Assembly (NCBI GenBank): GCA_020349965.1
Contig: CP070705.1
Location: 1,117,650-1,181,649, forward strand
Origin: Caldifarciminota bacterium
GTDB lineage: Bacteria; Hydrothermota; Tepidihabitantia; SM23-42
Reading direction: 5' to 3'
DNA length: 64,000 bases
This document shows, piece after piece, positions 13,300 through 29,837 of this stretch. Made by a program: the position numbers and the translations under genes. The number at the start of each line of letters is the position of its first letter. The stretch's first letter is position 1. Under the pieces are notes generated by a model that was given only the letters and a program-made list of their open reading frames with translations, searched no databases and had not been told where the DNA came from.

Positions 13300-16200
13300 T
13301 TGACGTGTATCACCTTTGTCTTCACCCGGTCCCCGCCGCACTCGAGATTGACAAAGTATATGCCGTTGGCGAGTTGTCTTCCGTGATCGTCAGTACCATC
13401 CCATGTTATCGATGATGGATGACCCATGGCTGATATCCTTGACGAAAGGTCCCTGACGAGACGGCCGCTCACGTCGTATACCTTAAGTATCGGTCCCACA
13501 GGGTCTCCTGCATCTGTGTATCTCTCATATGGTATGACATAGTTTATCTGTACCTGGCGTTGGAAAGGATTGGGATACGCACCCAGGTTCAATGACCCAT
13601 CTGATGTTGTAGTCAGTTCTTCTATTCCAGGGGATGAATAGAGGTAGAACGTGAAGTAGTCGAATTTGTGATATTCGCCGCCATTTGACTCTATGTACAA
13701 GGCAAAACCGATCGTTGTATCCGCAGGCACTGCGTCTATCTGAACCGTGTAGGGGTTTGCATTGTTGCCGGCGCTCATCCCCGGAGTTATCGATCCGAAA
13801 TCGGCTGTGCTGTCGATTATGGTCGCATCCTGATCGGCGGTCCGCAGTGTGGTACTGATATTGCTGGCCGTTGAGTTGCCTCCGTTTGTGATTTCAACAT
13901 ATATCTGAACGGTCTCGCCCGGATCGATTATTCCATTGCCGTTGCCGGTAACCGAGTCGACCATCGTATAGTGAGTTGTGTGAAGCCATATGCCTGCTGG
14001 TGACTTAGTTGTTATCAGGATTGCCCGGCCGCTCGTCAATGGTGCCGCATTGGGATGGTAGCTGCCATTGTATACATACTGGAGGCCGATTGTCTGGGTG
14101 TTGTCTTCGATGCCGACCGTGTTGCTGCTTGCGTTCATCACCGTATCGTACAAGAAAAGTATCTCTCCGCTGCCGTCGGGTGTCGGATAGTACTGCGGAT
14201 CTCTCAGCTGGACCTGGAACGTTTCTCTCTGGCTCGTGGCGCCATAATGAGCAACGCTTCTGAATTCAACGATCCACCGATTATTTCCGCTATCGTAAGC
14301 GTAATATATATCCCCGGTACCTGTAGGACTGACGCTGGGGTCGAGGTCGTCCCAGAAAGGTGCGATCAGTCGCCTCGGACCTGTAGTTGATGGAATCGGC
14401 TCGTTTGTGCCAAACCGGTATGTCGATGCGCCCATTTCCATGAATCCGTTCGAACACAGCCCAATCGAATTATACGTGAGCCCATAGAATGGAAAGGCAA
14501 ATGGTAGGGTATAGGTAACCGTATCCGCATCTTCATCCGTTATTTCGCTGACAAGCGACATGCTGCCGCCATACCACTCGAAGGCGGGCGCATAGCCGCT
14601 GAGCGTATCCGTATCGTCGTATATGTAGTACCCAAAGGCGTCAGGTCCGACCCATGACCCGGATGTACTATTTGTAATCGAAACGGAGAGGCTGCTGGTC
14701 CAGGAGTTGTTTGCGGCGTCGGAAATGAGGAGGTCGAAATTAACATTATGGCCGTCAGGGCATATATTCGATACTGCAAATACATACGGACTGATGCTCG
14801 ATGCCGAATCTTGTGGATAGACGTTGCCGTAGAAAGAAACGCTGTCGATTATCGATATGAATGCATCGCTCGTTCTTAGCGTTGCTCTGACGCCATACGC
14901 AGGGTTGCTCCCTATGTTGATCAAGGTATTATTTAAAAGAATTGTTTCGCCGCTCTCGGCGATCCCATTATTATTACCCAATGAGTCGTCAATGGAATAT
15001 GTGCTGTGCAATACGTATGGATTGTCGTCCATGATCGTGATCATTCCTTCATACGGCAGAAGATTTCTGCCGGTCACCGTGACGTCCATCTGCCCCGCGT
15101 GCAATCCGTCGAGTTGAAAGATGACTTGCCCGTTTTGCGTGTAACCGTAGTGGTAGGCGGTTGAGTCAAGACTGATGCATACGAGAGCCGAGTCGACCGG
15201 TTGTTCATTGAGCATGACGTTTACGGCGAGTGACTCTTCCGTTGCGTTGAGCGATTCGACGTGTATTACGTCGATCAACCTCGGTTTTGCTGTCCAGAGG
15301 TTCATCTCAGGATCGCCCAATGTGGCAAAGCCCTTGTAGTCGGTCACATCACTATAGAGATTGTAGAGATTCCTTCTCCCGGCTTCACAGGCTTCGCCAA
15401 AAGTTCGCAACCGATTGACAAAGATACCGGTGAAGAAGCCCCTTGAAACTGCGCTCCGTATGTGGGCGACGCCGCCTCTAACCGTCGTTGTCGCAAAATA
15501 GCCTGAGGCGCCGCGCGGATTCGCAGGCGTCCCGGTCAAGAGCCAGCGTTCGGCAGTAGCCGCGGTCGATCCTGTCCCGATGGTTGAGCACGTTATCGAA
15601 AGTACGATAGGCAGCATACTACCGTTGGATGTGGCATCCGGATTGACGCCGAACGGCGACCACCAGTTCCCGACACCCTGCCCGCGGTATTGTACAAAAC
15701 CCACGCCATTGTTCACCGATTGTATGACATTGTTGTAATTGTGACCGAGTAGCGAGGATAGTGTATCCATTCTGTTGTATCCGTTGTCCAGCATCAAACC
15801 GTATGCATGTCTCGAATCACCCCAGTAGATGTAGTCATCAGTTCCCGGCAAAGGAGGATAAGTATAGCCGTCTTCCCTGACGATAAGACACGCATTACGC
15901 AACCACAGTGTATCGGTCATGTTCGGCGTCCGCTCATACAGCAATATCTTCTTGACTACGGTCTTTGCCTCCACGGTATCGTGCACGGTCAACCTTCCCG
16001 CAAGGATATCATTGAAGAAGGTCGTGTCCATGTTCATGTAAGGGTAATCAGAGTAGGGGTAGGTTTGCCCCCACGGGAGTGAATCTGGCGAGCCGACAAG
16101 TAAGACATATTCCGGTTTTATCACCCAGTTGTTATAGGCGTCTAGAATATAGTTTCTGATTAGGGTGGAGTTTGATCCGATATCTGACAGTCTTACAACC

Positions 16201-16352
16201 TTTGTTTTCATCCCTTTCTTGTACTTCCACTCTGCAAGAGGTTGGATTGCATCATAGTATCTATCATGAGTGATTATCAAGTATCGAGCACCGACGGTCT
16301 GAGCGTTAGCGCCAACTATTATCGTTAAAATTAACGGGATGAACCTTTTCAT
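13296..16352 (-). CDS. C25 (gingipain)-family secreted protein 1, catalytic His replaced by Gln
   Basis: 1018 residues with a signal peptide (MKRFIPLILTIIVGANA). The C25 domain starts immediately (ARYLIITHDRYYDAIQPLAEW) with no propeptide. The nucleophile Cys255 lies in LSITCSTIG, but the GHG motif of gingipains reads G-Q225-G (QYRGQGVGNWW). Downstream lie a GDPEMNLWT segment, CARDB/Ig-like domains (GNGNGIIDPGETVQIYVEIT), a domain around GPDAFGYYIYDDTD and FAFPFYGLTYNSIGLCSNGF, and the FlgD-like C-terminal domain (AYPNPFQRQVQINYVIP, VYDVSGRLV, WDGTDDHGRQLANGIYFV). It has its own promoter at 16401-16428 and an AAAGGAG site. It is translationally coupled to the M14 gene. Confidence 0.9.
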   Translation of the reverse strand: MKRFIPLILTIIVGANAQTVGARYLIITHDRYYDAIQPLAEWKYKKGMKTKVVRLSDIGSNSTLIRNYILDAYNNWVIKPEYVLLVGSPDSLPWGQTYPYSDYPYMNMDTTFFNDILAGRLTVHDTVEAKTVVKKILLYERTPNMTDTLWLRNACLIVREDGYTYPPLPGTDDYIYWGDSRHAYGLMLDNGYNRMDTLSSLLGHNYNNVIQSVNNGVGFVQYRGQGVGNWWSPFGVNPDATSNGSMLPIVLSITCSTIGTGSTAATAERWLLTGTPANPRGASGYFATTTVRGGVAHIRSAVSRGFFTGIFVNRLRTFGEACEAGRRNLYNLYSDVTDYKGFATLGDPEMNLWTAKPRLIDVIHVESLNATEESLAVNVMLNEQPVDSALVCISLDSTAYHYGYTQNGQVIFQLDGLHAGQMDVTVTGRNLLPYEGMITIMDDNPYVLHSTYSIDDSLGNNNGIAESGETILLNNTLINIGSNPAYGVRATLRTSDAFISIIDSVSFYGNVYPQDSASSISPYVFAVSNICPDGHNVNFDLLISDAANNSWTSSLSVSITNSTSGSWVGPDAFGYYIYDDTDTLSGYAPAFEWYGGSMSLVSEITDEDADTVTYTLPFAFPFYGLTYNSIGLCSNGFMEMGASTYRFGTNEPIPSTTGPRRLIAPFWDDLDPSVSPTGTGDIYYAYDSGNNRWIVEFRSVAHYGATSQRETFQVQLRDPQYYPTPDGSGEILFLYDTVMNASSNTVGIEDNTQTIGLQYVYNGSYHPNAAPLTSGRAILITTKSPAGIWLHTTHYTMVDSVTGNGNGIIDPGETVQIYVEITNGGNSTASNISTTLRTADQDATIIDSTADFGSITPGMSAGNNANPYTVQIDAVPADTTIGFALYIESNGGEYHKFDYFTFYLYSSPGIEELTTTSDGSLNLGAYPNPFQRQVQINYVIPYERYTDAGDPVGPILKVYDVSGRLVRDLSSRISAMGHPSSITWDGTDDHGRQLANGIYFVNLECGGDRVKTKVIHVK
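13411..13545. repeat. Decayed copy of the paired heptamer blocks
   Basis: Within the C-terminal domain of C25 protein 1. On the plus strand, 13411-13445 divides as gatgatg gatgacc catggct gatatcc ttgacga, and 13511-13545 as catctgt gtatctc tcatatg gtatgac atagttt. The 7-nt rhythm is still visible but weaker than in the other three genes. The block spacing is 100 nt, because this protein has five extra codons between the blocks. Confidence 0.5.
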
Positions 16353-16400
16353 TCTTTTCTCCTTTTATGTCTTGGATTTTAAGACACTTCCTATAGTGCA

Positions 16401-16428
16401 ATTATAGCCTTTACAGGCTACGAGTCAA
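16401..16428 (-). promoter_or_regulatory. Promoter of C25 gene 1 and the M14 gene
   Basis: -35 TTGACT (16423-16428), 16-bp spacer, -10 TATAAT (16401-16406) on the minus strand. The spacer holds an inverted repeat, TAGCC-TGTAAA-GGCTA, which reaches into the -10 box and could be an operator. A leader of about 40 nt with AAAGGAG precedes the ATG. Confidence 0.82.
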
Positions 16429-16454
16429 TAGAAAGGTTTGGAAGAATTGAGGTC

Positions 16455-19400
16455 TTAACGGAGGAGGATTGTTTTTATCGTCTGCAATGTGTTCTCTGCC
16501 TCGAGGCGTATGAAATAGACACCTTGAGGCACGAGCCTGCCGACCGAATCGGTCCCATCCCAGTGGACGACTGATTCTTGATCCTTGATGTTTGATACTG
16601 GATTCAGTTCTTTGACTACCCTTCCTGCAGCGTCATAGACCACGAGCGTATGTTTCTCCATCGAGTATCCAGCATCGAGTATCGAGTATCTTATCTGCAC
16701 GTCGCTCCGGAACGGATTGGGCCAACACGACAGGAGGAGCACTGCAGTGTTGCCGTGCGATCTGAGTTCTCCTACGCCGGTCGGCGGGATGCCGAAATAG
16801 CCCATGATCGAGTCGAGGAGCGCCGCCTTTGTCGACGGTTGAATCGTATCGACCAACCCGCTCAACTCGAACGATAACCCGACCGTCCGGTTATCTGCGG
16901 CAACAGCGCAACCGTAATTAGAATACGATTTTTTGAAGATCAGCTGCGAGCCGGCAGTTGTATCTATGTAGTCAATCATGGTTGCTTCGCCATTGTAAAT
17001 GAAGGACATATTCTGAGTGAACGTGCCGTTGCAGCCATCTACACCGGCAAATGCTCCGATCGAATTGGAAATTGTCTCTATTCCAAATAATTGTCCGAAA
17101 TTATAACCGTGGTTGACCAGGGCATTATACCAGACGTCGCCGCCTTCGAGATATGTTTTTCCGCTCTGTGCCTGCAGATAGTAGTCTATCTCATATCCTA
17201 TCTGACTGGTATCGCTGATGAAATATCTATAGGGGTATACTCCGGTACAGATAAATATCGATCTGTACAGAGAAAGACAATCATATGGTATGTCTATGCT
17301 ATAATCTCCGTAATACGCCAGGGAATTTAACAGAGAATCGATAACCGGACCGCTGGTGTGGTTTGGGTCAGGGTCCCACACCAGGTAATCTTTCTGACCC
17401 ACTTGGATCGTGATATTGAGGGTCGCCGTTGACACGCCCGATACTACGCAAACCGTTATGTCTGTTGTGTAACCGGCGGGGATGCCGGGATGAGCTTCAA
17501 TTATGAAAGGGTCTGTTTGATTAGGTCCGACACTGTCCGGAAGTATATTTCCGAATGAAGCGGTCGAGTCAATTAGAGTTATGAGCGAATCACTGCAAGT
17601 TATCGCGGCGGTGACGTTTTCGGCCCTTCCTGAGCCGGTGTTCAGCAACTCCACATATAGTGGGCCCACCGAACCGGCCGGTATGTACTTCAGGTGATCA
17701 TTGAAATAGTGGTCATGGTACGAAAGTATGGGTGCGCGGTTCATGAATGTCAGGTCAGATGTCCATAGCGAGCTCCCCGAATCACGGATGCGCAGGCAAA
17801 GTCTGATCTCATGTTCATCAGGAGCATTCGTGTCGATGACGACATTGTAGCCGTCTGGGTACACGCAAACTGATTCATAGGGTGCGATATTGCCGCAGTA
17901 TCTTATCGTATCGTATAGCGTGCATAATGTATCGGGGGTTGTCTTTTCGATAATGGCCGAAATGCCGTATGCAGTTGCATCACCCCAGTTCTTCAGAGTA
18001 AACGGTATTTCAATGTCTTCACCCGGATTCGCTACGCCGTCTCCATTGCCTCCGATTGAATCCAACAGTTGCCACGTGAATAGCTGAACGCAAGGACCGC
18101 CCGTGTATAATACCGGCCGTGCATTGGAATATGGTTTTAGATTTTGGCCGGTGACTGTGATATAGACGGAATCGCCGGGAATATGCAGGGTATCGATGAA
18201 TTGAATGCCGCCATTGCGGTTCGTGTACCCATAATGGTAGAACGTCGTGTCGCGCTTTGCTGCAAGACACACGAGCGCGCCTGCTACTGCAGTGGAATTA
18301 TGCTCTACGTAGACATTCACCGTGCATATTCCGGTATGGAAATACATATTGTGTCCGACCAGTATTTCTCTGGGTGTATAAGTCCACATCTTCATTTCCG
18401 GATCGCCGAGGCATATCCAGCTGTGGTATTCGAGGAGATCACTGAACTGCGCATAATATTCAAGGCGTCCTGCCTCGGCTGCAACGCCCAGTCCGCCACT
18501 GTCACTGAATAGACATGCAGTAGTACCACGACACAGCGCGCTACGCATTTCCGCAGCCTCGTACAAAGAAGTCGTTGTGCCGAAGAACGCGATGACACCT
18601 CTTGGCTGGCTTGGTGTTCCCGCGACCGTCCATTCGGTACCGATGCCTTCTACGGTAGCACAAGTTGCCGACAAGACGACAGGCATCTCATAGCCGTTTG
18701 ACATCTGGGATGCATAAATGCCTGCGAATGGCCACAGCCAATCGCCGCCGCCAATACCACGGTAGAGAATATACGACCGGCCGTCGTTTATTGCATTCAG
18801 TACGTCTGCACTATCATCACCCAGTTCGTAGGAGAATGAATCTATGTGCGTATAACCCGCATCGAACATGAATTGATGGGCGTAGCGGGCATCTGCCCAG
18901 TACAGTGCGGCCGAAGAAGGCGCTCCCTGTTCCCATTCATTGGCTATCGTCACACCTCGCCGAAACCATGATGGATCGGGTGAGAGCGGCGGATTCTTTT
19001 CATAACCCAGTATCTTCCCGATGACCGTTTGTGCTTCGAGTGTGTCCGATACCCAGAGCCGACCGTGGTATAGTTCATTGTGAAAGTCACCGCTGACATT
19101 GGCGTAGTAGTTGTCGCTGTGCGAGACAATGCTTCCGACATGCATGAAGCGAGGAAAAGGCACCTGGTATTTATTGCCGACGATCAGCAGATATTCGGGC
19201 CGGATCTGCCAGGTATTATAGGCGTTCACAATGTAATTTCTGATCTGGATCGAATCGGTGCCGGTTTCCGATAGTCTGACGATCTTTGCCTTCATGCCCT
19301 TTTGTGTCTTCCACTCAGCCAGAGGTTGCAGTGCCGTGTAGTAACTGTCGTGGGTGACGATGAGGTACCGTGCACCGGATTCCTGCGCCCGAAGAGCTGT

Positions 19401-19478
19401 GCTGAACAGTGATACAATTAGCAGCAAAATTACACTGATTCTGCGAGACGCGGGTGCACCGGGCAGGTTGCCTCTCAT
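16455..19478 (-). CDS. C25 (gingipain)-family secreted protein 2, catalytic His replaced by Ile
   Basis: 1007 residues with a signal peptide (ISVILLLIVSLFSTALRA). The C25 domain begins ARYLIVTHDSYYTALQPLAEW; the nucleophile Cys273 is in LSATCATVEG, but the histidine position reads G-I242-G (YRGIGGGDW). After ICLGDPEMKMWT come Ig/CARDB-like domains (GNGDGVANPGEDIEIPFTLK; SVGPLYVELLNTGSG), then a region (about 700-900) around DYLVWDPDPNHTSGPVIDSL and YLEGGDVWYNALVN resembling a glutamine-amidotransferase-like fold, and a FlgD-like C-terminal domain. The start ATG overlaps the stop of the Ycf48-like gene by 4 nt (ATGA). The heptamer blocks at 16573-16692 encode part of the C-terminal domain. Confidence 0.88.
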   Translation of the reverse strand: MRGNLPGAPASRRISVILLLIVSLFSTALRAQESGARYLIVTHDSYYTALQPLAEWKTQKGMKAKIVRLSETGTDSIQIRNYIVNAYNTWQIRPEYLLIVGNKYQVPFPRFMHVGSIVSHSDNYYANVSGDFHNELYHGRLWVSDTLEAQTVIGKILGYEKNPPLSPDPSWFRRGVTIANEWEQGAPSSAALYWADARYAHQFMFDAGYTHIDSFSYELGDDSADVLNAINDGRSYILYRGIGGGDWLWPFAGIYASQMSNGYEMPVVLSATCATVEGIGTEWTVAGTPSQPRGVIAFFGTTTSLYEAAEMRSALCRGTTACLFSDSGGLGVAAEAGRLEYYAQFSDLLEYHSWICLGDPEMKMWTYTPREILVGHNMYFHTGICTVNVYVEHNSTAVAGALVCLAAKRDTTFYHYGYTNRNGGIQFIDTLHIPGDSVYITVTGQNLKPYSNARPVLYTGGPCVQLFTWQLLDSIGGNGDGVANPGEDIEIPFTLKNWGDATAYGISAIIEKTTPDTLCTLYDTIRYCGNIAPYESVCVYPDGYNVVIDTNAPDEHEIRLCLRIRDSGSSLWTSDLTFMNRAPILSYHDHYFNDHLKYIPAGSVGPLYVELLNTGSGRAENVTAAITCSDSLITLIDSTASFGNILPDSVGPNQTDPFIIEAHPGIPAGYTTDITVCVVSGVSTATLNITIQVGQKDYLVWDPDPNHTSGPVIDSLLNSLAYYGDYSIDIPYDCLSLYRSIFICTGVYPYRYFISDTSQIGYEIDYYLQAQSGKTYLEGGDVWYNALVNHGYNFGQLFGIETISNSIGAFAGVDGCNGTFTQNMSFIYNGEATMIDYIDTTAGSQLIFKKSYSNYGCAVAADNRTVGLSFELSGLVDTIQPSTKAALLDSIMGYFGIPPTGVGELRSHGNTAVLLLSCWPNPFRSDVQIRYSILDAGYSMEKHTLVVYDAAGRVVKELNPVSNIKDQESVVHWDGTDSVGRLVPQGVYFIRLEAENTLQTIKTILLR
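16573..16692. repeat. Paired inverted heptamer blocks in C25 gene 2
   Basis: Plus strand 16573-16607 is five heptamers: gattctt gatcctt gatgttt gatactg gattcag. 16658-16692 is five more in the opposite sense: ccatcga gtatcca gcatcga gtatcga gtatctt (read on the minus strand: GATACNN). The block starts are 85 nt apart. Both blocks are translated, into the two loops that flank the conserved strand YDAAGRVV of the C-terminal domain. Confidence 0.85.
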
Positions 19479-20770
19479 TTTTTTTCGGTCAAAACTAATT
19501 TCATGCTGGATACCGATTGCGGGGTTCTGAGCTCCACAAAATAGATGCCAGGAGGGAGTTGTTTGCCGCTATCATCCGTACCATCCCACTGAACGACTGA
19601 TCCTGGATTCTGGATGCTGGATATCAGATGAAAGGATCTAACAAGACGTCCACCAGCATCGTAGATACGCAGGGCCGGTTCTTGTATTAAGTATCTAGAA
19701 TTTAGTATCGAGTATCTAATCTGTGTGATGTTCGAGAAAGGGTTCGGTTGAGCATTAAGCGTGACGGTTGCCGGTGCAGCAGTAGTGTTTTCTTGTATTC
19801 CGACACGTTGCCAGTTCTGCCCGCCATTGGTGGTACGAAGGATATAATTATAACCGCATACCAGACCGTGCTCGTGATCTGAAAAATCAACGTCGAACAA
19901 TGTGCTGTCCGCGGGGTTGCTTTGGACAGCCCAGGTGTTGCCGCCATCCGTTGTATGTATTATTGTCCCGGACTTGCCGACCGCCCATCCTTCCTGATCT
20001 ACAAAGTCCACTGCCCTTAAGTAATACGTATTAGAGGGAAGACTGACAGGACTCCAGGTAGAACCGCTATTCGTTGTTTTCCAGACAAGCGGCGAATAGT
20101 CGATCTCGTCACCACCCACCACGATGCCGTCAAATATGTTGAAGAAATGGATATCAAAAAAATCTTCATACCCAGCGGTATGATATCCGCTGAGCGTATC
20201 CCATATGATGCCGCCATCATTTGACGTGAGGATATATCCTTGTCCGGTGACCACTGAATCCGGCCATCCCGCACATATCCAGCTATCCCATTGATTGATT
20301 ATTGATACGCCATAATATTCAGCCTGATACCACTCAGTGAACACTTGTTCCCAGACAACCCCGCCGTTCGTTGTTCTTGTGATAGTGCCATCCCCGCCAA
20401 CGGAGATACCGTAATTATGGTCGAGGAATTCGATACGTGTTCCGTATTTTGAAAACCCTGCGATCTGCCTTTCCCAGTAATTACCTCCGTCCGACGTGTG
20501 AAGGATTTCTGCAGCATGGAGGTTGTGCTTGCCCGTTGTCCAGGCGTTCATACTGTCAAGACACGTTACATCGAAGAGCCGTCTGCTGTAGGGATCTGGC
20601 GGTGCGTCTTGGGGAATCCAGGTCAAGCCCCCATCCGTCGTATAGAGGATCAGTACGGTATCGATCGCCACAACCCAGCCGTGCAGGTTATCCGGTGCAA
20701 GTGTACAGCCGTGGTAGTTGATGGCAAGAGAAGCGGATGCAAATGCCAGCAGCAAAATCACAAATTTCAT
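19475..20770 (-). CDS. Secreted Ycf48-like beta-propeller protein with C-terminal sorting domain
   Basis: 431 residues with a signal peptide (MKFVILLLAFASASLA). It has repeated seven-bladed propeller motifs of the Ycf48/BNR type: ILYTTDGGLTWIPQ, ILHTSDGGNYWERQ, ITRTTNGGVVWEQV, WKTTNSGSTWSPV, IIHTTDGGNTWAVQ and ILRTTNGGQNWQRV, interleaved with GWAVGKSG-type strands. A FlgD-like C-terminal domain follows (AQPNPFSNITQIRYSIL, IYDAGGRLV, WDGTDDSGKQLPPGIYFVEL). Its stop overlaps the start of C25 gene 2. Its own start is 85 nt after C25 gene 3, with AAGGGGG as ribosome-binding site; I see no clear promoter in that gap. The function is unknown; a cell-surface binding scaffold is plausible. Confidence 0.88.
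   Translation of the reverse strand: MKFVILLLAFASASLAINYHGCTLAPDNLHGWVVAIDTVLILYTTDGGLTWIPQDAPPDPYSRRLFDVTCLDSMNAWTTGKHNLHAAEILHTSDGGNYWERQIAGFSKYGTRIEFLDHNYGISVGGDGTITRTTNGGVVWEQVFTEWYQAEYYGVSIINQWDSWICAGWPDSVVTGQGYILTSNDGGIIWDTLSGYHTAGYEDFFDIHFFNIFDGIVVGGDEIDYSPLVWKTTNSGSTWSPVSLPSNTYYLRAVDFVDQEGWAVGKSGTIIHTTDGGNTWAVQSNPADSTLFDVDFSDHEHGLVCGYNYILRTTNGGQNWQRVGIQENTTAAPATVTLNAQPNPFSNITQIRYSILNSRYLIQEPALRIYDAGGRLVRSFHLISSIQNPGSVVQWDGTDDSGKQLPPGIYFVELRTPQSVSSMKLVLTEKK
19599..19718. repeat. Paired inverted heptamer blocks in the Ycf48-like gene
   Basis: 19599-19633: gatcctg gattctg gatgctg gatatca gatgaaa. 19684-19718: gtattaa gtatcta gaattta gtatcga gtatcta. Same layout as in C25 genes 2 and 3: two 35-nt blocks of five heptamers in opposite orientation, with starts 85 nt apart. 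Confidence 0.85.
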
Positions 20771-20855
20771 TCTTTTACCCCCTTATGTTAACCGTGGTTG
20801 TCACGGTGCTATCACAAGCAAGCTCACAATACAGCACCTGCTGCATTGTTCTATC
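20771..20855 (-). promoter_or_regulatory. Intergenic region with two hairpins between C25 gene 3 and the Ycf48-like gene
   Basis: It holds two inverted repeats. One is ACCGTG (20791-20796) with CACGGT (20802-20807), a 6-bp stem with a 5-nt loop. The other is CAGCA-CC-TGCTG at about 20833-20844. Neither is followed by a U-run on the minus strand, so they are not classical terminators. No consensus promoter was found. Read-through with attenuation or mRNA processing is the simplest reading. Confidence 0.4.
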
Positions 20856-23800
20856 CTAATCTATTAATACCACTTTGTCGGTGATACTAAACTGATCGCC
20901 TTGCAGTATAATGAAGTATATGCCTCCTGGTACCCGTCGGCCAGAGGCATCAATGCGATCCCACAACAAACTTGATTCATGATTCATGATGGTCGATTCA
21001 AGATTAAACGATTTGACTACGCGCCCTGAGATATCATAAATCGCCAATCTAAGGTTCGGTATCGTGTATCGTGTATCCTGTATCCTGTATCTTATATTCA
21101 GCTCTCCCCGGGACGGATTAGGTGATATGTAGAGGATATTACGCCGGCCAGTGGGCGTCAATAGCTCAGACACGCCGGTGAAGGTGTCCGGAGGATCGGT
21201 CGTGAATTTTATCGCCCTGCTGTCTGTCAATGATGCTGCTGCGGTCGGATAGATGTCTGCATACGTATACTCAATGCCCGTTGTGTGGTCATAGTTCTCG
21301 ATACCCACAGTTGCATAGTTATGCCAGATATCATCATTGGTTATGTCCAGGTATTGGAAAACGACTTCGCCGTCGCCGGTTTGGGTCGGATTGTATAGCG
21401 GATCGTATAATATCACTTCGAATGTCTGCAGCTCTGAAGGCGTAGGGTTTGCATAGTCGTGGATGTGTTGTATCCTTGAATATTCGATTATGAAACGATG
21501 ATTCGTAGCATCATACCAGTAGCAGACTACGCCACTTGAATCCGTCGCGTTCGGGTCCAAATCGTCCCAGAAAGGTGATACGAGCAAAGGAGGTCCGCCA
21601 GTACCCGGGATATGCCAGTTGTACATGTCTGCTATCCAGGTCGAATCCATCGCGATGTAACCGTCGGAACATATAGAGATGCGGTCGTACCAGTTTCCGT
21701 AAAATTTGAAACTGAACGGCAGTGGAATAGTCTTCGTCTCGTCCGCTCCCAGGCTTATCGAATCACCCGGGCCGTTATAAGGTGGTCTGGGGTCGATCTC
21801 GATCCATCCGTAAACGGGTGCTTCTGAATAGTCCGTGTCACCATTGTCGTAAGCATAGTATCCATACGCGTCCGGGCCAAGCGGACTTGTGGAATCTATT
21901 ATTCCGACGGTGAGTCGAAAACCGGTCGTATCGACGAATCCGTTGTTGCCGTTCAATATCAACGAGAAACGTACGCTCGTGCCCGGAGTCAACGATGAAT
22001 TGGCCGAAAGTGTGAATGGATTTCCACTATTCGCTGCTGAATCGCCGGCCAAGATATTGCCGAAATAACCCATTGAGTCGGTCACGATCAGACCGCTGTT
22101 AGCGGATCTGAGGATCCCCGATACATTCATTCCCTCGAAGCCGCCAGTGTTCTCTACCCAGACCAAGAAATCGCGCGTTTCGCCCGGCTCGAGTATGCCA
22201 TTGCCATCCAGTACCTGAGTTCGCTGATGGACAAGATTCGGTGCCCTTGCCGTTATCCATATACTCCCTGACCACGTTCCTTGATCTGATGTGATGTCAA
22301 GGGTGAATTTTAAAATATGATCGTCGCGGATAATCTGCGACACATCGAATATGTATGGAGCCGTGGTTGCAGTGGCGCCGGGGACTATGTTCCCGTAGGT
22401 TTTGATCGAATCGGTAATAGTAACGTTGAGGTCGTTGGTCGACAAGCGTGCCGAGACATTCGTGGCAGTCGTTGATGTTCCGTAGTTCCTCAACGTTACG
22501 CCGAGTTCGATCGTCTCGCCAGGATTCACTTCTCCGTTATTATTCCCACCTGGATCACTGATCGTGTGTGAATCATATCCTACGAAGACTGAGGCGTCGT
22601 TGACCATGGTGTGGCCGGAATATGGTTTGAAATTGTGTTTTGTTATCGTTACAAATAGAGTATCCTGTGTCGACGTGGTGAAATTGAAGGCGGCATTACC
22701 GGTCTCATCCGTGAATTCTATTTCCTTGACCTCGCCTGACTTATATAGGCTCGCCATGGCGCCGGCGACCGGTTGGGAGGCAGAGTTAGTGACATGAACA
22801 GAGAACGAGCTACTGCCCGTCTGAATCGACGGAACATGTGTGACAATGAATGAATCAGGGATTCCGGTCCAGACTTCAAGCGAGGGATCACCGAGCAGAT
22901 TGAAGGCGTGGAAGTAGAACGAACTTCCTGACGTAATTGTGGTATCGTTGGGAAAATTCAAGTACAATTCCATCTTGCCGCGGTACAATGCTGCTCCGAG
23001 GCTGGATATGTCGTCTTCCAGAATCCCCCAGTAAACGCCATAGTCGAGGCAGTTATTCCATCGCGTATGACTTTGGGGTGATGAGGCGCCAAAAAATGCC
23101 ACTGCACCTTTTGGTGCAACAGGATTGCCTGCTCTCAGCCATGCTTCGCCAAAGCAAGTGCCTGCGCCAAAATTCCCCGTCCAGCAGACAATGCTCGTGA
23201 CTATAGGCAGCTTCCAGCCGTTGTTCAGAGCATATACGTCAGCACTCCCGAAAAATGGAAATGGCCAGCTATCGATGTTCCCGTCGCCCGACCGGTAATT
23301 GACAAAAGTAACGCCGTTGTTTATTGATGCAGTGATTCCCGAAGGCGGCATCGGATCGAATACCGTGTCGACTGCGTTGAATCCGTATTCGAAAAACTTG
23401 TCACGTACCCACCGTTTGGTCGGTACGGGCGTTGTCATACCGCTCGGTAGATTTGCGCCAACCATCAAGGCGCGCGAGTACCAGGAAGGATCGCTCATCG
23501 TGGGATTTGTCTCATACCCTATGATCTTCGCTACGACCGTATTCAATTCGTTATCGATGCTCACGGATAGACGACCGATGAGCAATTCCGAAAGGAAATC
23601 GTCGCCGTCGATCAACGTATAGGGGTGATCGGTCGCTGATGGGTTGGTGAACGCGGGGACATGATTTACGTCACCGACCAACAACACATATTCGGGCCGA
23701 GGGGACCAGGTGTTATAGGCATTTGCGATGTAATCTCTTATCAGTGTCGGTGTACTTCCAGTCTGCGCTGTCGTTCTTATTTCGACGTCCCATCCCTTTT

Positions 23801-24320
23801 TCTCCTTCCATTGTGCCAGCGGCTGTATTTCGTCGACGAATTCGCTCGGGGCAATGATCAGGTATCCACGTGGTCTCTGGTCGCCGCTGTTCCGGAAATT
23901 AAGGATAAGATCCTCAAACGTTTCACCGAGTGATGGGCTGAGTTCAATTTGCATCGATGAAGGTATCAGGTCTATTCTTATCTCAGCCGATTTCACGAAA
24001 TGTCTCATGTTATTCTTGACATACGACGGTTCGATGAGAATGGGGTAGAGGCTTGCGCCATTGAGTCGGACGGGCGAGCCGATGCGCACAGGTTCACTTT
24101 CCTCGCTTTCGAGAGAATTATGCGATGAGTCGAACTCTGCACGGTCATAGACGTAGGTTGGTGGAGTTTCAGAAATGACGAATCTGGCAATCGGTTGCTG
24201 TTCGTTCTTCTTGAATTCCGAGAATTCAACGCGAAGGAAGAGCGCTGACGGAGTCGATCTGAGGATCTGAACCTGATCGCCCTCAGCGGCGAGGAAAAGA
24301 AAGAGAGCGAATGCCGTCAT
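20856..24320 (-). CDS. C25 (gingipain)-family secreted protein 3 with N-terminal domain, catalytic His replaced
   Basis: 1154 residues with a short signal (MTAFALFLFLAAEG). Residues about 15-145 form an extra N-terminal propeptide-like domain not found in the other two C25 proteins. The C25 domain runs from about 150 (RGYLIIAPSEFVDEIQPLAQW); Cys379 is in SIVCWTGNF, while the histidine motif reads G345-D346-G347. LLGDPSLEVWTG follows, then CARDB-like domains (GNNNGEVNPGETIELGVTLR; GNGILEPGETRDFLVWVE), a domain with DAYGYYAYDNGDTD and LPFSFKFYGNWYDRISICSDGY, and a FlgD-like C-terminal domain. The ATG overlaps the LVIVD gene stop by 4 nt, tying it to the poly-gamma-glutamate operon. Confidence 0.9.
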   Translation of the reverse strand: MTAFALFLFLAAEGDQVQILRSTPSALFLRVEFSEFKKNEQQPIARFVISETPPTYVYDRAEFDSSHNSLESEESEPVRIGSPVRLNGASLYPILIEPSYVKNNMRHFVKSAEIRIDLIPSSMQIELSPSLGETFEDLILNFRNSGDQRPRGYLIIAPSEFVDEIQPLAQWKEKKGWDVEIRTTAQTGSTPTLIRDYIANAYNTWSPRPEYVLLVGDVNHVPAFTNPSATDHPYTLIDGDDFLSELLIGRLSVSIDNELNTVVAKIIGYETNPTMSDPSWYSRALMVGANLPSGMTTPVPTKRWVRDKFFEYGFNAVDTVFDPMPPSGITASINNGVTFVNYRSGDGNIDSWPFPFFGSADVYALNNGWKLPIVTSIVCWTGNFGAGTCFGEAWLRAGNPVAPKGAVAFFGASSPQSHTRWNNCLDYGVYWGILEDDISSLGAALYRGKMELYLNFPNDTTITSGSSFYFHAFNLLGDPSLEVWTGIPDSFIVTHVPSIQTGSSSFSVHVTNSASQPVAGAMASLYKSGEVKEIEFTDETGNAAFNFTTSTQDTLFVTITKHNFKPYSGHTMVNDASVFVGYDSHTISDPGGNNNGEVNPGETIELGVTLRNYGTSTTATNVSARLSTNDLNVTITDSIKTYGNIVPGATATTAPYIFDVSQIIRDDHILKFTLDITSDQGTWSGSIWITARAPNLVHQRTQVLDGNGILEPGETRDFLVWVENTGGFEGMNVSGILRSANSGLIVTDSMGYFGNILAGDSAANSGNPFTLSANSSLTPGTSVRFSLILNGNNGFVDTTGFRLTVGIIDSTSPLGPDAYGYYAYDNGDTDYSEAPVYGWIEIDPRPPYNGPGDSISLGADETKTIPLPFSFKFYGNWYDRISICSDGYIAMDSTWIADMYNWHIPGTGGPPLLVSPFWDDLDPNATDSSGVVCYWYDATNHRFIIEYSRIQHIHDYANPTPSELQTFEVILYDPLYNPTQTGDGEVVFQYLDITNDDIWHNYATVGIENYDHTTGIEYTYADIYPTAAASLTDSRAIKFTTDPPDTFTGVSELLTPTGRRNILYISPNPSRGELNIRYRIQDTRYTIPNLRLAIYDISGRVVKSFNLESTIMNHESSLLWDRIDASGRRVPGGIYFIILQGDQFSITDKVVLID
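20974..21093. repeat. Paired inverted heptamer blocks in C25 gene 3 (best copy)
   Basis: 20974-21008 is five heptamers: gattcat gattcat gatggtc gattcaa gattaaa. 21059-21093 is five heptamers of the other sense: gtatcgt gtatcgt gtatcct gtatcct gtatctt. The block starts are 85 nt apart. The encoded loops read RYRIQDTRYTIPN and NLESTIMNHESSLLWD. The heptamer unit is out of step with codons, so repeats appear in protein only every 21 nt. Confidence 0.9.
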
Positions 24321-25288
24321 TCTTCCTCCACTATGATAACCAACCCCATGTCGCGGTCGGCGATGTAGATCGTGTCGCTTCTTACGCAGACTCCGTTTGC
24401 GTATGACGTAGGCATGCTGCCATACAGCAGAGGCTCATTTGGGTCTGCGATATCGATGATCTGAAGGCCTGCGTCGCCGTCGGCAACGAACGCTTTGTCG
24501 TTAACAATGAAAACATCGTTTGCATACTCCGGTGTATCGTACTGGCTCGCGATCGAAGGATTTTCGATATCCGAGACGTCTATGATTATAAGGCCTCCTC
24601 TGCCGTCGGCAACATACGCATAGTAGTAATCGGCGGAGATCCCGCGAGCATTTGACGGTGTATCTATCCAACCGACAAGTGCTGTGCTGTCCGGTCTAGC
24701 TAAGTTGATCATTTGCAGACCCATCTGTTCGCATGCGAGAAAAGCTATTGAATCAAGCATGTACACTCCCCTGGCATCTCCTGGTGTTGTGAATCTTCTT
24801 ACGTAGGAGGGGTACTGGGGGTATGTGTACACATCCTCCACATGGAACCAGTAGTTGGCAGCAATGTAGACATACATCGTATCATCGAGTGGTGCCGCGA
24901 CATCGTTTGCATAGATCGAAGGGTCCTGTCCGACAAATACGGGGTTTGTGGGATCTGCAATGTTCAAGGTAACGAGACCGCCGCTCGTCGATGATCTGAG
25001 CGCGATGTAGGCAAAAGTATCACGCACCGCAACGCTGCCGACGTCACGATCTGTCAGATATTGTCCGATCACGTAAGTCGATTCCGGATCGCTGATATTT
25101 ACGATCTGCAGCCCTCCCTGTCCGTTAGCCACGTATGCAAGGCTGTCGACGAGCACGACCTTGTTTGCGTAGCCGGGCAGGGGGCAAACGCCGATAATAG
25201 CAAAATTAGCCTGCGGTGTCGAAACCTCAGGGCGTCCGCAGAACAGTGATATCAAAAGAACTAATGGAAGGTATTGCTTTCTTCTCAC
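24317..25288 (-). CDS. Secreted LVIVD-repeat beta-propeller protein
   Basis: 323 residues with a hydrophobic N-terminus (YLPLVLLISLFCG) that may be a lipoprotein signal, although Phe before the Cys is not canonical. At least six LVIVD-type repeats are visible: AYVANGQGGLQIVNISDPES, GGLVTLNIADPTNPVFVG, GLQMINLARPDSTALVG, AYVADGRGGLIIIDVSDIEN, AFVADGDAGLQIIDIADPNE and IYIADRDMGLVIIV. Such proteins are usually surface propellers of unknown ligand. It has a GTG start after AGGGGG, 8 nt downstream of the barrel gene. Its stop overlaps the start of C25 gene 3 by 4 nt. Confidence 0.87.
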   Translation of the reverse strand: MRRKQYLPLVLLISLFCGRPEVSTPQANFAIIGVCPLPGYANKVVLVDSLAYVANGQGGLQIVNISDPESTYVIGQYLTDRDVGSVAVRDTFAYIALRSSTSGGLVTLNIADPTNPVFVGQDPSIYANDVAAPLDDTMYVYIAANYWFHVEDVYTYPQYPSYVRRFTTPGDARGVYMLDSIAFLACEQMGLQMINLARPDSTALVGWIDTPSNARGISADYYYAYVADGRGGLIIIDVSDIENPSIASQYDTPEYANDVFIVNDKAFVADGDAGLQIIDIADPNEPLLYGSMPTSYANGVCVRSDTIYIADRDMGLVIIVEEE

Positions 25289-25296
25289 ATAACCCC

Positions 25297-26289
25297 CTAA
25301 TAATAAAACTCGAAACCTGCGCCTATTCTGTACTTTGTGTAATTTTTGATCTCATCGATGTCCGGTAAGATCTCCGATGTTGAATTTCTCCACTGGCGCA
25401 TAAAATCCAGCTTGAATAGAAGACCGGTCTTGATGCGCGAGCGACTGCCAAAACGGATCCGATGGAGGTGGTCAATCCGGCTGAAATGGAGTGAATCTTC
25501 GTTCGTCGAAGCGTTGTAGCGTCTGAAACTATAGTCATAAGAGCAGTTGAATGTAGTAGCAAGAATGACTCGGGTTTGCAGGGAGAGGTTCAGGGCGATA
25601 TCATGTTCGTAGTACGAGCCGTCGGGCACCAATTCGGAACTGAGGGTCGAAACATCTGCCGAATCGGCCCTCGCGTTCTTGTAGTCGTAACTGAAGGCGA
25701 ACTCAAGGAATTTATGCAGTTTCTTTTCTATTGCTAAAGATACGATGTGAGCTTCTGCGTCGTATCTGTTGAATTCGGTGATATAATCATCCCACTTGTG
25801 CCGGTATGCAGCGCTTATGATAATGTCTTGCTCGGTCGTGAATGATATCTTCCCCGTTAGCAGGTGGTATGCTACTTCACAACCGATATACTCCGTGCTC
25901 TCACCGAAAGGGTTACGGTAGTACCGTATCATGTAATTTGGAATGAATTGATAAGATAATTTGACCGCATATCGTCCAAGCGACTGTCTAAGACCGATGG
26001 TGTAGTTCTGGTAATTCTTCTGTTTATTGACCAGATAGTTACGCGTACCGAGACCGAAATTGAATGTCGTCGTACGTTTGCCGAACAGTCGATTTCTGAG
26101 CAGGAGGGCAAAATCGACAGAAGTGGTCAGATCGTCATAGGTCTCGAACGGGAAACGGTACGGACGCACTGAGTTGAGGAAGTCATCAATGTATGATTGC
26201 GAGTAGGCGTATACATTGTCGTCGTATGTAAAGTCGATATCGAGATTGTAGGAATGATCCCACGCAGCAATTAACAGAATTGCTATCAT
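25297..26289 (-). CDS. Predicted outer-membrane beta-barrel protein
   Basis: 330 residues. It has a short signal (MIAILLIAAWDHS), then alternating amphipathic strands rich in Tyr, Arg and Asp with turns (TTTFNFGLGTRNYL, YTIGLRQSLGRYAVKLSYQF, EFAFSYDYKNAR, TTFNCSYDYSFRRY). It ends in YRIGAGFEFYY; a terminal aromatic residue is the usual signal for BAM-dependent barrel insertion. I start at the ATG at 26289, which overlaps the upstream stop (ATGA); the longer frame up to 26454 lies inside the upstream gene. Its place in the poly-gamma-glutamate operon suggests a role in passing or anchoring the polymer at the outer membrane, an inference from position. Confidence 0.75.
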   Translation of the reverse strand: MIAILLIAAWDHSYNLDIDFTYDDNVYAYSQSYIDDFLNSVRPYRFPFETYDDLTTSVDFALLLRNRLFGKRTTTFNFGLGTRNYLVNKQKNYQNYTIGLRQSLGRYAVKLSYQFIPNYMIRYYRNPFGESTEYIGCEVAYHLLTGKISFTTEQDIIISAAYRHKWDDYITEFNRYDAEAHIVSLAIEKKLHKFLEFAFSYDYKNARADSADVSTLSSELVPDGSYYEHDIALNLSLQTRVILATTFNCSYDYSFRRYNASTNEDSLHFSRIDHLHRIRFGSRSRIKTGLLFKLDFMRQWRNSTSEILPDIDEIKNYTKYRIGAGFEFYY

Positions 26290-27116
26290 CTTTCTTCTAC
26301 AAGGAATCTCAATGCAGCACTCTCCGCTACTGTGCCGGTCAGGGTGAATCTCAGTGTGTGTCTGCCTTCCTTTACGTTCATGTGGAAGCTGCGAGCGTTC
26401 GACGGTACGATGTTCTTTCTGTCCCGGTAGGTGATGATCTGCGATTTGTAGCATTTGTGAGCGAACTTCTCGATGTCGGCGCCCTCTTCGACAGTGATTG
26501 TGTAGTTCTGATCCCCGATCATCCTCTCGTCATAATTGAGCCTGGAGATGATGCGCAGCCTTGCGGGACCGCTGACAGTGAGGTTAATGTCATCTCCTCT
26601 TTTCAGTTCGTAATACTTGAGAATCTTCTCTTCTTCGATTGCTTCGATAGTTGAGCCATATTCAGACGCCTGGATCTCGTTCCATTTCTTCGGTGATTCA
26701 TAAGCGAATTTGACCAGTATGGTGTCATTGGGTGATGACCAGTGAGTAAGTTTGTATTCGTTCGAACCTTCGGGTATTTCTATGTAAAAGGAACGCCATT
26801 TGCTGAGCGGTCTACCTTTCTTGTCCTTAGTCACGTCAGATTTTTCGGATTCCAAGGTTATGATATTCTCGTCAATCTTGTTTTCCTGGAGGATCAGTTT
26901 ATATATTTGGCTTCCGAGTCTATCTTTTTGCCAGAATATCCTTGTGTATACTCGCAGATATGTGGGCCCCTCGGCGGAAAATGAAATCGGGCTATTTTTG
27001 GTCAGCAAGAGATATTCATCGGTCTGTTTTGTCACGATCTCGACTTCCCATTTCTTACGGGGATTGATGTCTTTTATTTGTGCGAGAAGGCATATTGCCA
27101 GCATTAACTTAATCAT
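26286..27116 (-). CDS. Secreted protein with an internally duplicated domain, function unknown
   Basis: 276 residues with a signal peptide (MIKLMLAICLLAQIK). Two homologous halves are visible. Residues about 50-125 contain GPTYLRVYTRIFWQ, LGSQIYKLILQE and SFYIEIPEGSNEYKLT; residues about 185-270 contain GPARLRIISRLNYDE, IGDQNYTITVEE and SFHMNVKEGRHTLRFT. Each half reads as a beta-sandwich. I do not recognise a named family. It overlaps pgsW by 8 nt upstream and the barrel gene by 4 nt downstream, so it belongs to the polymer operon. A periplasmic adaptor or polymer-binding role is possible but unproven. Confidence 0.75.
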   Translation of the reverse strand: MIKLMLAICLLAQIKDINPRKKWEVEIVTKQTDEYLLLTKNSPISFSAEGPTYLRVYTRIFWQKDRLGSQIYKLILQENKIDENIITLESEKSDVTKDKKGRPLSKWRSFYIEIPEGSNEYKLTHWSSPNDTILVKFAYESPKKWNEIQASEYGSTIEAIEEEKILKYYELKRGDDINLTVSGPARLRIISRLNYDERMIGDQNYTITVEEGADIEKFAHKCYKSQIITYRDRKNIVPSNARSFHMNVKEGRHTLRFTLTGTVAESAALRFLVEER

Positions 27117-28185
27117 TCTTACTCCTTTTTAAATATCTATCTATGTCATAACGCAAGACTACGAATAAAATAACCGCAAGTATCAGTACGATCGCAACCG
27201 CCATTGGTACCGAATACCTGTACTCATAATACAGACGTCCCTCGCCGGGATTCGGTAATGGCAAGGGTGCTAAAGGCAAATCACTTTTCAGCGCGAGCAG
27301 CTCGATGTCCGCGAGGTTGATCACAGGGATGCCTTTTCTGGAAAATCGGGCGAGCAGCCCGTTTCCTGCTTTCAGGGAGTGCGGTTTTATCAAGCCATTA
27401 TCTCCATCGAGCCCGGCGAACGCCGTCGCTTTCTCGGCCGCGTTGACGAATAGTCTGATTCTGCCGGACGATTCATAGATTTTCATCTTCTCCTGTATTG
27501 CTTCATCGAGGTTAGCGGCGGTAAGAAGCGATACGCCATTCCGCATTGCCGCTTCTTCAATTATCTCGCGACCGGCAGGGCTCAAACCCCTGCCCACATC
27601 GTCTTCGCCGCCGAACGTGGCAACAGTTGATTTGTACTTGAAAATGTCGTTTGACCTGCACAATGCTTCTATATCTAGGTAGGTGAGCTCAGGAAAATTC
27701 GCTCCCCACATCGACGAGCTTACCGAAGTTATGATCACCGCTTGGAGTTCGAGAGTCTTCATCGCGCTCATGACTGAAATATTGAGGGCAGGGTAGGATC
27801 CTGTGAGGAGAACGGCAACTGTGTCGTTCTTCCGCACACCCGTCTGTTTGAGATAATGGATGACGAGTGCTGCAAAATTGGAGTTCGTTGAGGTCAATTT
27901 TGCATCGAGGTCGCCGCGCTCAGTCGTTATGGGAGAATACTGGAGGCCGATGAGTCCTGTTTCATTTGGATCGTTGATCCTATCGATCGGTATACCCATT
28001 TCATAGACGGTTTTCTTCACGTGTGCAAATGCGGTCTGCGCTGTTCTCGCAGCATCGAGTTTCTCTTTATGATACTTGGCTTCGACCCTGGTCTTGGAAT
28101 TTAATTCCAGTGTCATCAATCCGATCGTAATCAGAGTGACCACGGACAATGACAGAATCGATATTTTACCTTGGCGTCTTTTCAT
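27109..28185 (-). CDS. pgsW: Poly-gamma-glutamate system protein (PgsW-like)
   Basis: 358 residues with two membrane segments, near the N-terminus (ISILSLSVVTLITIGLMTLEL) and the C-terminus (VPMAVAIVLILAVILFVVL). The extracytoplasmic middle contains GLIGLQYSPITTERGDLDAKLTSTNSNFAALVIHYL and AVLLTGSYPALNISVMSAM. This matches my memory of the family that accompanies pgsB and pgsC in Gram-negative poly-gamma-glutamate loci in place of PgsA/PgsE. The biochemical role is not established to my knowledge. The ATG overlaps the pgsC stop by 4 nt. Confidence 0.8.
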   Translation of the reverse strand: MKRRQGKISILSLSVVTLITIGLMTLELNSKTRVEAKYHKEKLDAARTAQTAFAHVKKTVYEMGIPIDRINDPNETGLIGLQYSPITTERGDLDAKLTSTNSNFAALVIHYLKQTGVRKNDTVAVLLTGSYPALNISVMSAMKTLELQAVIITSVSSSMWGANFPELTYLDIEALCRSNDIFKYKSTVATFGGEDDVGRGLSPAGREIIEEAAMRNGVSLLTAANLDEAIQEKMKIYESSGRIRLFVNAAEKATAFAGLDGDNGLIKPHSLKAGNGLLARFSRKGIPVINLADIELLALKSDLPLAPLPLPNPGEGRLYYEYRYSVPMAVAIVLILAVILFVVLRYDIDRYLKRSKND

Positions 28186-28634
28186 GGGAGCACAACTCCG
28201 TTGTGTAATATGATTATGATCAAACGAACGAGACTGGAGACAATAAGCATGGCCGAGATCGTGGGTATAATGCCCTGGCGCGCGATCCAGTATGCGATCA
28301 GCCCGGGGATGACGAACCCTACGGTCTGCAGGTTAAAACTCACGCCATCAAGAGTCACAATGGGAGATATGCGCGTCACGTAGGCTATTAGATATCCCAC
28401 CAAGATCGATATGATCAACAATCTGCGTCCATAAATGATTATATAGGAAGAAAGCATTTTGATGATCAGATAGGTGATTAAGCCAGCGAGTATTGTGGCA
28501 CAAACCTGCAGAGGATTGTGCAGTACAAGTGCTATGTAGCCGGGTACCACTATTCCACCTGCAGCAAGACCAATGGTCTCGGTAAGGATGAGGCTGAGGA
28601 ACATTCCGATGCCTACTGACTCAATGAGTAGCAT
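28182..28634 (-). CDS. pgsC: Poly-gamma-glutamate synthase membrane subunit PgsC/CapC
   Basis: 150 residues, the usual length, with four to five membrane helices. Family features are the start of the first helix (IGMFLSLILTETIGLAAGGIVVPGYIAL), LLIISILVGYLIAY and FVIPGLIAYWIARQGI. PgsC forms the membrane complex with the PgsB ligase and is needed for polymer synthesis and translocation. Its ATG shares one base with the pgsB stop (TAATG), so the two subunits are made together. Confidence 0.93.
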   Translation of the reverse strand: MLLIESVGIGMFLSLILTETIGLAAGGIVVPGYIALVLHNPLQVCATILAGLITYLIIKMLSSYIIIYGRRLLIISILVGYLIAYVTRISPIVTLDGVSFNLQTVGFVIPGLIAYWIARQGIIPTISAMLIVSSLVRLIIIILHNGVVLP

Positions 28635-29800
28635 TATCTCCTCTCTTTACGTGTAAACTCATTCATTAACTCTTCGCCGTAACCAACCGTGTTGCCTATT
28701 GCAAAGAGCAGGCTGTTATCGGCTACGAACTCGGAGATTTTCTCGATGACGTCGGATGGAGGCATATTGCCGACATCGAGGATCTTATCTTGTTCGCTAA
28801 TCCTGGTGAGTTTTCTTGCCAGTACTTGTGTGCCGTGGCCGGTCAGTATATATTGATCGCCTCTCAACCGGTTACGTATCAACTCTGCCATTTGGAACGA
28901 GCGGTCGATCCGATCATCCCGGCAGTTAATCAGGATATTCAACTGGGGGTAATTCTTTTCTATCATCTGCCATATCAAATAAGTCGAATCCGGATCATTT
29001 GCGGCCATGGCGTTTACCAAGGTGATTTCTTTAGTGCCAAGTTGCACTCTATGCCGACGCAAAACGCCCGGATCAGGATTTGCATCATACATTGCGGCGA
29101 GGGCATGCTCTTCGTCAACACCGAAATGTCTACATACATCAAGCGCGATGGCAAGATTGTCTCTGTGTTCGATATATGGGAACTCACTCATCTGAGATGG
29201 TGAGATCCGTTTTTCATCCGAGATGTAAGGGTCAATGCTTTTCTTTTTCAGAATAGGCTCGTGGCCTAGCATTATGTTCCGGTGTCCGAGAAAGACTGTT
29301 GCATCATTGGGCAACGCCTTCAAGAAATGCCTGCCGATATCTTTGATTGAAGGACCCATGACATCGAGGTGGTCGGCGCGGACATTGGTGATGACAACGG
29401 CATTGGGCTTGACAATGTGAACGGCTTCCGAGTACTGCAGATCGGGCCTCAAGGCCATGCATTCGAGGACGATCGCGTCTGGTTGCTCATTCGCAGCCCT
29501 TTTGAATATCTCTACCTGCTCGCGAATGTTAGGCATGCCGAGACGCATTACAGGTTGCTCGCTGTGGCTGTCATGAATGAAACTGGCTTTCGTCCCTGTA
29601 GTTTTTGCAATGACTTTCTTGCCCCCGCCTCTTAGCCCGGCAGCGATCAAACGGGTTACCGAAGATTTACCACGGCTGCCGTTGACCCAGATGCGTATTG
29701 GTATTGACCTGACTCTTCTTTCGTGATTGACTTTTTCAATCCTGAGAAAGATGATGTAAAGGCCGATCAAAAGCAGAACTGCATAAATGCCCAAAAACAT
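28634..29800 (-). CDS. pgsB: Poly-gamma-glutamate synthase subunit PgsB/CapB
   Basis: 388 residues, with an N-terminal membrane anchor (IYAVLLLIGLYIIFLRI) and then a Mur-ligase-like ATP-dependent amide ligase domain: P-loop WVNGSRGKSSVTRL, TTGTKASFIHD, DAIVLECMALRPDLQ and TNVRADHLDVMGP. It polymerises glutamate through gamma-linkages using ATP. As first gene of the operon it has a consensus promoter ending 9 nt before the ATG and no ribosome-binding site, so translation is probably leaderless. Gamma-PGA forms capsules, slimes or osmoprotective coats in characterised organisms. Confidence 0.95.
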   Translation of the reverse strand: MFLGIYAVLLLIGLYIIFLRIEKVNHERRVRSIPIRIWVNGSRGKSSVTRLIAAGLRGGGKKVIAKTTGTKASFIHDSHSEQPVMRLGMPNIREQVEIFKRAANEQPDAIVLECMALRPDLQYSEAVHIVKPNAVVITNVRADHLDVMGPSIKDIGRHFLKALPNDATVFLGHRNIMLGHEPILKKKSIDPYISDEKRISPSQMSEFPYIEHRDNLAIALDVCRHFGVDEEHALAAMYDANPDPGVLRRHRVQLGTKEITLVNAMAANDPDSTYLIWQMIEKNYPQLNILINCRDDRIDRSFQMAELIRNRLRGDQYILTGHGTQVLARKLTRISEQDKILDVGNMPPSDVIEKISEFVADNSLLFAIGNTVGYGEELMNEFTRKERR

Positions 29801-29809
29801 ATAACGCTA

Positions 29810-29837
29810 AGTATAGCAAAATAAGTTGGCATGTCAA
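29810..29837 (-). promoter_or_regulatory. pgsB: Promoter of the poly-gamma-glutamate operon (leaderless)
   Basis: -35 TTGACA (29832-29837), 16-bp spacer, -10 TATACT (29810-29815) on the minus strand, 9 nt before the pgsB ATG at 29800. No other promoter was found down to 20856, consistent with a seven-gene transcript. Confidence 0.85.

Follow-up and report, generated by a model that had tools for sequence, protein, structure and literature searches.

A poly-gamma-glutamate synthase array of a Caldifarciminota bacterium carries an undescribed outer-membrane barrel module, a likely route of polymer export

The described systems closest to the locus reported here are PgsBCA(E) and CapBCAD(E) of Bacillus, with which it shares PgsB and PgsC by equivalog models; unlike the Bacillus operons, the operon here has no PgsA but a protein of the TIGR04332 family, followed by a jelly-roll protein (hereafter P276) and an outer-membrane barrel. 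CapBCA of Francisella resembles our array in that PgsBC-type genes occur in a diderm, but it is of the CapA type, and the accessible part of its description mentions no barrel partner and reports that capB and capC are unnecessary for the Francisella capsule (PMC4688374). In a survey of capsule systems, the poly-gamma-glutamate (PGA) capsule model, which has CapB and CapC as its mandatory parts, was found in diderm phyla; the survey notes that the outer membrane of diderms calls for at least one further protein, and the PGA model includes none (PMC5542703). Consistent with the statement in the first-pass annotation that no dedicated exporter is widely known, our literature search, with most subscription journals outside its scope, found neither a polyglutamate exporter of Gram-negative bacteria nor an account of a module composed of P276 and the barrel.

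On the view proposed here, the array is similar to the exporters PgaA, BcsC, AlgE and PelB in combining an inner-membrane synthase, a periplasmic domain and an outer-membrane barrel, the last two sometimes in one chain, as in the P276-barrel fusions described below. Their barrels have 16-18 strands, whereas the barrel here is predicted to have 14, jelly-rolls are found instead of TPR repeats, and no solved barrel was matched by sequence. CymA and OmpG share the 14-strand monomeric barrel fold at ~10% identity; they differ in that the outer loops here are conserved rather than variable, and in the genetic tie of the present barrel to pgsBC.

The window, i.e. the whole stretch of 64,000 nucleotides that was analysed, contains a minus-strand run of seven ORFs at 20856-29800 that begins with pgsB and ends with the first C25 gene, and the block extends further downstream. 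Its features are as follows.

29810-29837, minus strand: candidate sigma-70-like promoter, 9 nt ahead of pgsB, a consensus match only
28634-29800, minus strand: pgsB, poly-gamma-glutamate synthase of the Mur-ligase type (TIGR04012, Mur_ligase_M)
28182-28634, minus strand: pgsC, membrane subunit of the synthase (TIGR04011 and PF14102 above cut-off)
27109-28185, minus strand: "pgsW", predicted inner-membrane protein (TIGR04332)
26286-27116, minus strand: P276, secreted basic protein with two tandem jelly-roll beta-sandwiches (AlphaFold, fold matches, fusions, charge)
25297-26289, minus strand: barrel, 330 aa, predicted 14-strand outer-membrane barrel (AlphaFold, CymA/OmpG fold matches, conservation)
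24317-25288, minus strand: LVIVD beta-propeller, probable lipoprotein (PF08309, Cys-x-x-P after the signal segment)
20856-24320, minus strand: first C25-fold protein with a T9SS-type tail (PF01364, TIGR04183, gingipain alignment)
19475-20770, minus strand: YCF48/BNR propeller with a sorting tail, the conserved next gene of the array, beyond the interval first noted
16455-19478, minus strand: second C25-fold protein with a sorting tail, without the catalytic His
13296-16352, minus strand: third C25-fold protein with a sorting tail, at the end of the block
11809-13341, minus strand: M14 zinc carboxypeptidase with a sorting tail (PF00246, 2.7e-45)

From pgsB on, the junctions of the seven genes are overlaps of 1, 4, 8 and 4 nt, a gap of 8 nt and an overlap of 4 nt; the tight run of seven genes claimed by the first-pass annotation was borne out in its ORFs, its identities, its overlaps of 1-8 nt and its single 8-nt gap. 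For the barrel, we took the ATG at 26289 as the start, which gives 330 aa and an overlap of 4 nt with the P276 stop (the mechanical ORF begins at 26454). Past the first C25 gene, the block continues after a gap of 85 nt with the BNR/YCF48 propeller, the second C25 (4-nt overlap), the third C25 and the M14 gene. The single strong promoter that had been placed before pgsB stood only in part: a good site is present there (29837-29810, TTGACA-16-TATACT with TG, an 11/12 consensus match), but the scan as a whole returned 23 sites versus 20.3 in shuffled sequences, i.e. no excess, and the site is therefore kept as a candidate only. The -10 hexamer of this site ends 9 nt ahead of the pgsB ATG; if this is a genuine promoter, the mRNA would have almost no leader.

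PgsB matched TIGR04012 (E=2.5e-114, 382 bits, cut-off 222.7) with its P-loop GSRGKSS intact, and PgsC, whose gene is adjacent to pgsB with the 1-nt overlap, matched TIGR04011 (E=9.7e-36, 123 bits, cut-off 96.45). By these NCBIfam equivalog models the two are members of the poly-gamma-glutamate synthase, an enzyme already known. The product of pgsW matched TIGR04332 (E=1.1e-84, 284 bits) and reads as having a hydrophobic segment at both ends with ~270 aa between, a middle part that would lie in the periplasm. The first-pass annotation had noted the absence of pgsA, and the array indeed encodes no PgsA/CapA (PF09587); the genome as a whole, however, holds a single PGA_cap (CapA-like) protein at 85,330, ~1 Mb from the array. 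The presence of CapA showed no association with that of pgsB over 147 phylum genomes (p=0.17), and CapA was rejected as the missing partner for this lack of co-occurrence. The earlier reading saw no known gamma-PGA hydrolase either, and PF05908, the PghP-type model, gave no match in the genome, yet detected the B. subtilis control.

To see how the array is conserved in relatives, a check that the first-pass annotation had itself proposed, 60 phylum loci were fetched and mapped for gene order. TIGR04332 is present in 70 of the 147 phylum genomes; a search of named genomes returned three WOR-3 records only, and the named relatives belong to candidate division WOR-3. In 50/60 phylum loci the TIGR04332 gene is directly followed by P276 and the barrel, separate or fused, an arrangement far beyond chance that also recurs outside the phylum; among the remaining loci, two end within P276 and one ends after pgsW. 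The LVIVD gene comes next in most loci of the class to which the organism belongs, as well as in some further families, and is followed by C25, YCF48 and C25. Several families (L039, L041, L044-L046, L067 and L073) have no LVIVD or C25 gene, and their P276 and barrel form one ORF of ~535-655 residues. Because several families keep pgsB-C-W and P276-barrel without LVIVD or C25, we regard these genes as the core of the array and the rest as accessory. In at least 8 loci, the second domain of P276 and the barrel are in a single ORF, jelly-roll first and barrel second; the profiles used for detecting these fusions were built from unfused members only, and both halves were still found.

Of the 147 genomes, 67 have pgsB as well as the barrel and 70 have neither, and the mismatches are five genomes with pgsB only and five with the barrel only (p=2e-29 by a Fisher test, which ignores kinship between genomes); 67 of the 77 genomes with either gene thus have the pair. 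Most of the mismatches are contig ends or fragmented assemblies. The barrel and P276 were both found in 69 genomes, the barrel only in 3, P276 only in 1 and neither in 74. Fusion, and dispersal with retention, are lines of evidence separate from these co-occurrence tests: one family (f17) retains pgsBC, pgsW and the P276-barrel pair although they are at separate places, with a gyrB-like gene next to pgsW. In two loci of this family (L106 and L107, genomes G018 and G017), pgsBC is followed by a same-strand ORF of 376-384 aa with no match to the pgsW profile. At another locus (L113, G086, bin1428), pgsW is cut and the P276-barrel pair lies ~47 kb away, by rearrangement or misassembly. One genome (G108) lacks P276, and another (G072) keeps pgsBCW without the barrel and with a P276 remnant only. 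The parts, their folds, their co-occurrence, their fusion and their joint retention are thus what we observe.

Outside the phylum, TIGR04332 was found in 25 genomes (search of 390 genomes), and 19 of the 25 have the barrel. The order pgsB-C-W-P276-barrel is kept in 11 genomes from nine families (in L134 the P276 match is weak), and in three further genomes P276 adjoins pgsW while the barrel is located on that contig or at the beginning of a different one. Five others (G149, G251, G297, G342 and G387) have the barrel away from pgsW, yet retain it. Strong barrel matches outside the phylum number 19, every one in a genome with TIGR04332, versus 0/218 in the other genomes. Three loci (L147, L154 and L155) have a free P276 and, in addition, a jelly-roll domain within the barrel protein itself.

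Related genomes with pgsBCW but without the accompanying genes had been named as evidence against the proposal. Within the phylum only G072, with its P276 remnant, is of this kind, but outside it six TIGR04332 genomes have no barrel, five of them beyond the barrel-linked PgsW clade. All six have Omp85, and the idea that the barrel-free genomes are monoderms was rejected on this ground. In the PgsW tree, a clade of 49 rows (99/98) contains all primary copies of the barrel genomes, and G072 and G326 are its only members from barrel-free genomes; G326 has orthologous pgsBCW without the barrel although Omp85 is present. Outside this clade are the other five barrel-free genomes and four second copies from barrel-linked genomes. 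A second TIGR04332 clade (L137, L143, L149, L151, L156, L160 and L161), with or without divergent pgsBC, may be another system; L143 and L151 lie beside DctM-like permeases, and four genomes hold copies of both the second-clade and the barrel-linked type.

Neither P276 nor the barrel matched any model in Pfam or NCBIfam, and 40 relatives of each gave only stray weak matches. The AlphaFold2 model of P276 (41-sequence alignment, pLDDT 91.1) consists of two tandem beta-sandwiches (jelly-rolls); the protein is all-beta except for its signal segment, and the model contains no TPR superhelix. A fold search matched tandem CBM22/CBM51 carbohydrate-binding jelly-rolls, the likeness being in outline only, and the P276 profile found nothing useful among PDB sequences. 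The median net charge is +8.5 for P276 and +6 for the barrel, whereas the LVIVD, C25 and BNR proteins encoded next to them carry a negative net charge (-17 to -31). The earlier suggestion that the duplicated-domain protein goes with the barrel is supported by the fusions, and we infer that P276 is the periplasmic partner of the barrel.

The barrel was modelled by AlphaFold2 with pLDDT 92.1 and pTM 0.86 (41-sequence alignment) as a closed, even-stranded barrel of 14 strands, with turns of 2-4 residues on one side and loops of 7-29 on the other; the signal peptide, as judged by eye, is short. The structure prediction suggested for the 330-residue protein thus returned a confident barrel, as had been expected. 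Its nearest folds are CymA (TM up to 0.57) and OmpG (TM 0.59/0.68), with E down to 4e-11. Because many porins were matched and the polysaccharide exporter PgaA (4y25) appeared only at rank 21, the fold by itself is no proof of export. The barrel profile matched no PDB sequence even at E 10, and no homology to PgaA/BcsC-type barrels was seen. A distant relative of the barrel in G010 (L109:8361-9473) lies without pgs genes beside glycosyltransferases and an MsbA-type ABC exporter; some members of the barrel family may therefore work with a polysaccharide.

When the barrel was oriented with both termini in the periplasm, as is standard for barrels with an even number of strands, and by the turn and loop lengths, the outer half held 37 of the 40 best-conserved residues (mean 1.55 versus 0.99 bits, p=1e-8). 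They include basic residues (Arg122, Arg256, Arg271, Arg301, Lys91, Lys315 and His268) as well as acidic ones (Asp52, Asp53, Asp177, Asp223, Asp265 and Asp273). Most porins show the reverse pattern, and conservation at the outer mouth rather than in the periplasmic half could mean a surface-binding role. One possible interpretation is that the barrel, P276 and the LVIVD lipoprotein form an anchor that holds the polymer at the surface, while the polymer exits by another route. Besides the conserved outer half, ligand binding is frequent among jelly-roll folds, and in many outside genomes LVIVD follows the barrel even when the pgs genes are elsewhere (L163, L165 and L171-L173). We nevertheless consider the anchor unlikely, since no other candidate for an outer-membrane exporter recurs in the array and the fusions place the jelly-roll ahead of the barrel, as is usual for periplasmic domains.

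The likeness to uptake porins raises the further possibility that the locus serves to import or salvage polymers or peptides of the gamma-glutamyl type, with the barrel as an import porin and the PgsBC-like enzymes in another pathway; the permeases of DctM type beside a related PgsW clade and the M14 carboxypeptidase that recurs at the array would fit such a function. However, the annotated barrel-linked arrays contain no permease, the DctM-linked PgsW copies form a separate clade without the barrel, and the equivalog cut-offs are clearly exceeded by both PgsB and PgsC, which makes uptake quite improbable.

The LVIVD protein matched PF08309 (E=9.6e-29) and is probably a lipoprotein, because Cys-x-x-P follows a hydrophobic segment in 32/35 relatives. 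The first C25 protein matched Peptidase_C25 (PF01364, E=4.6e-64) and, like the gingipain and PorU peptidases, combines a C25 domain with a T9SS-type tail; unlike them, it has Asp at the position of the catalytic His when aligned to gingipain R, with the Cys kept, and the array-linked orthologs retain the Cys in 30/30 and the His in 0/30. The catalytic His is also missing from the second C25, and the GHG motif was found in 0/89 C25 ORFs of the phylum loci. A proteolytic role, such as the processing proposed in the first-pass annotation, is unlikely because the His is lost in all 30 orthologs. Cys-only C25-fold proteins are abundant in these loci (window 13296-24320 and relatives) and are likely a non-proteolytic surface lineage. 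A better candidate than C25 for an enzyme that trims the polymer is the M14 carboxypeptidase, whose gene closes the array downstream in six loci and immediately precedes pgsB in two; its close relatives thus flank the array on one side or the other in other families. In L046 and L071, the M14 gene overlaps pgsB by 4 nt.

The C25 and BNR proteins have the TIGR04183 sorting domain above cut-off, the third C25 and the M14 protein also have type IX tails, and the genome encodes SprA of the type IX translocon (242 bits); with a C-terminal sorting domain and SprA in the genome, the C25 and BNR proteins are predicted cargo of this system. That the envelope genes as a whole serve type IX display, with the pgs genes as chance neighbours or sharing only regulation, is hardly credible in spite of these tails on C25, BNR and M14, because P276 and the barrel have no sorting tail, come after pgsW in loci that lack C25 and LVIVD (L039, L044-L046, L067 and L073) and co-occur with pgsB across genomes.

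Returning to export, we consider it probable that the array encodes a diderm poly-gamma-glutamate system with its own outer-membrane module, in which export passes from P276 to the barrel, LVIVD caps, gates or holds, and type IX proteins are displayed at the surface. Synthesis by PgsB and PgsC would take place at the inner membrane, where the TIGR04332 protein presumably stands in for the PgsA/CapA of Bacillus. The basic P276 may then hand the polyanionic chain in the periplasm to the 14-strand barrel, through which the polymer would exit, and the LVIVD lipoprotein may cap or gate the barrel, or retain the polymer on the cell surface. Exported by type IX, the C25-fold and BNR proteins would act as surface binding proteins and not as gingipain-type proteases. 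We infer the identity of the polymer, the direction of transport, the role of each protein and every step after synthesis from the gene content, the folds and the conservation described above; P276, the barrel and the LVIVD lipoprotein would thereby form an outer-membrane module that is most likely an export channel. The wider proposal, to which we give an even chance, is that P276 and the barrel are the first members of a new class of polymer exporters in the outer membrane. This class would have no relationship to Wza or the PgaA/BcsC/AlgE barrels, would be devoted to a poly-amino-acid, would be present across many diderm lineages and would be gated by an LVIVD lipoprotein from the membrane surface.

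The P276-barrel module is likely undescribed, as is its likely function in export, and P276 and the barrel are named here as two protein families without a Pfam or NCBIfam entry. If export is true, the module supplies the outer-membrane protein set that is missing from the diderm PGA model (PMC5542703), and it would be a marker for telling exporting PGA systems from other PgsBC-like systems, such as those of the PgsW clade without the barrel. In many bacterial lineages, polyglutamate genes travel with an undescribed outer-membrane pore and its partners, which are the probable route of the polymer to the surface.
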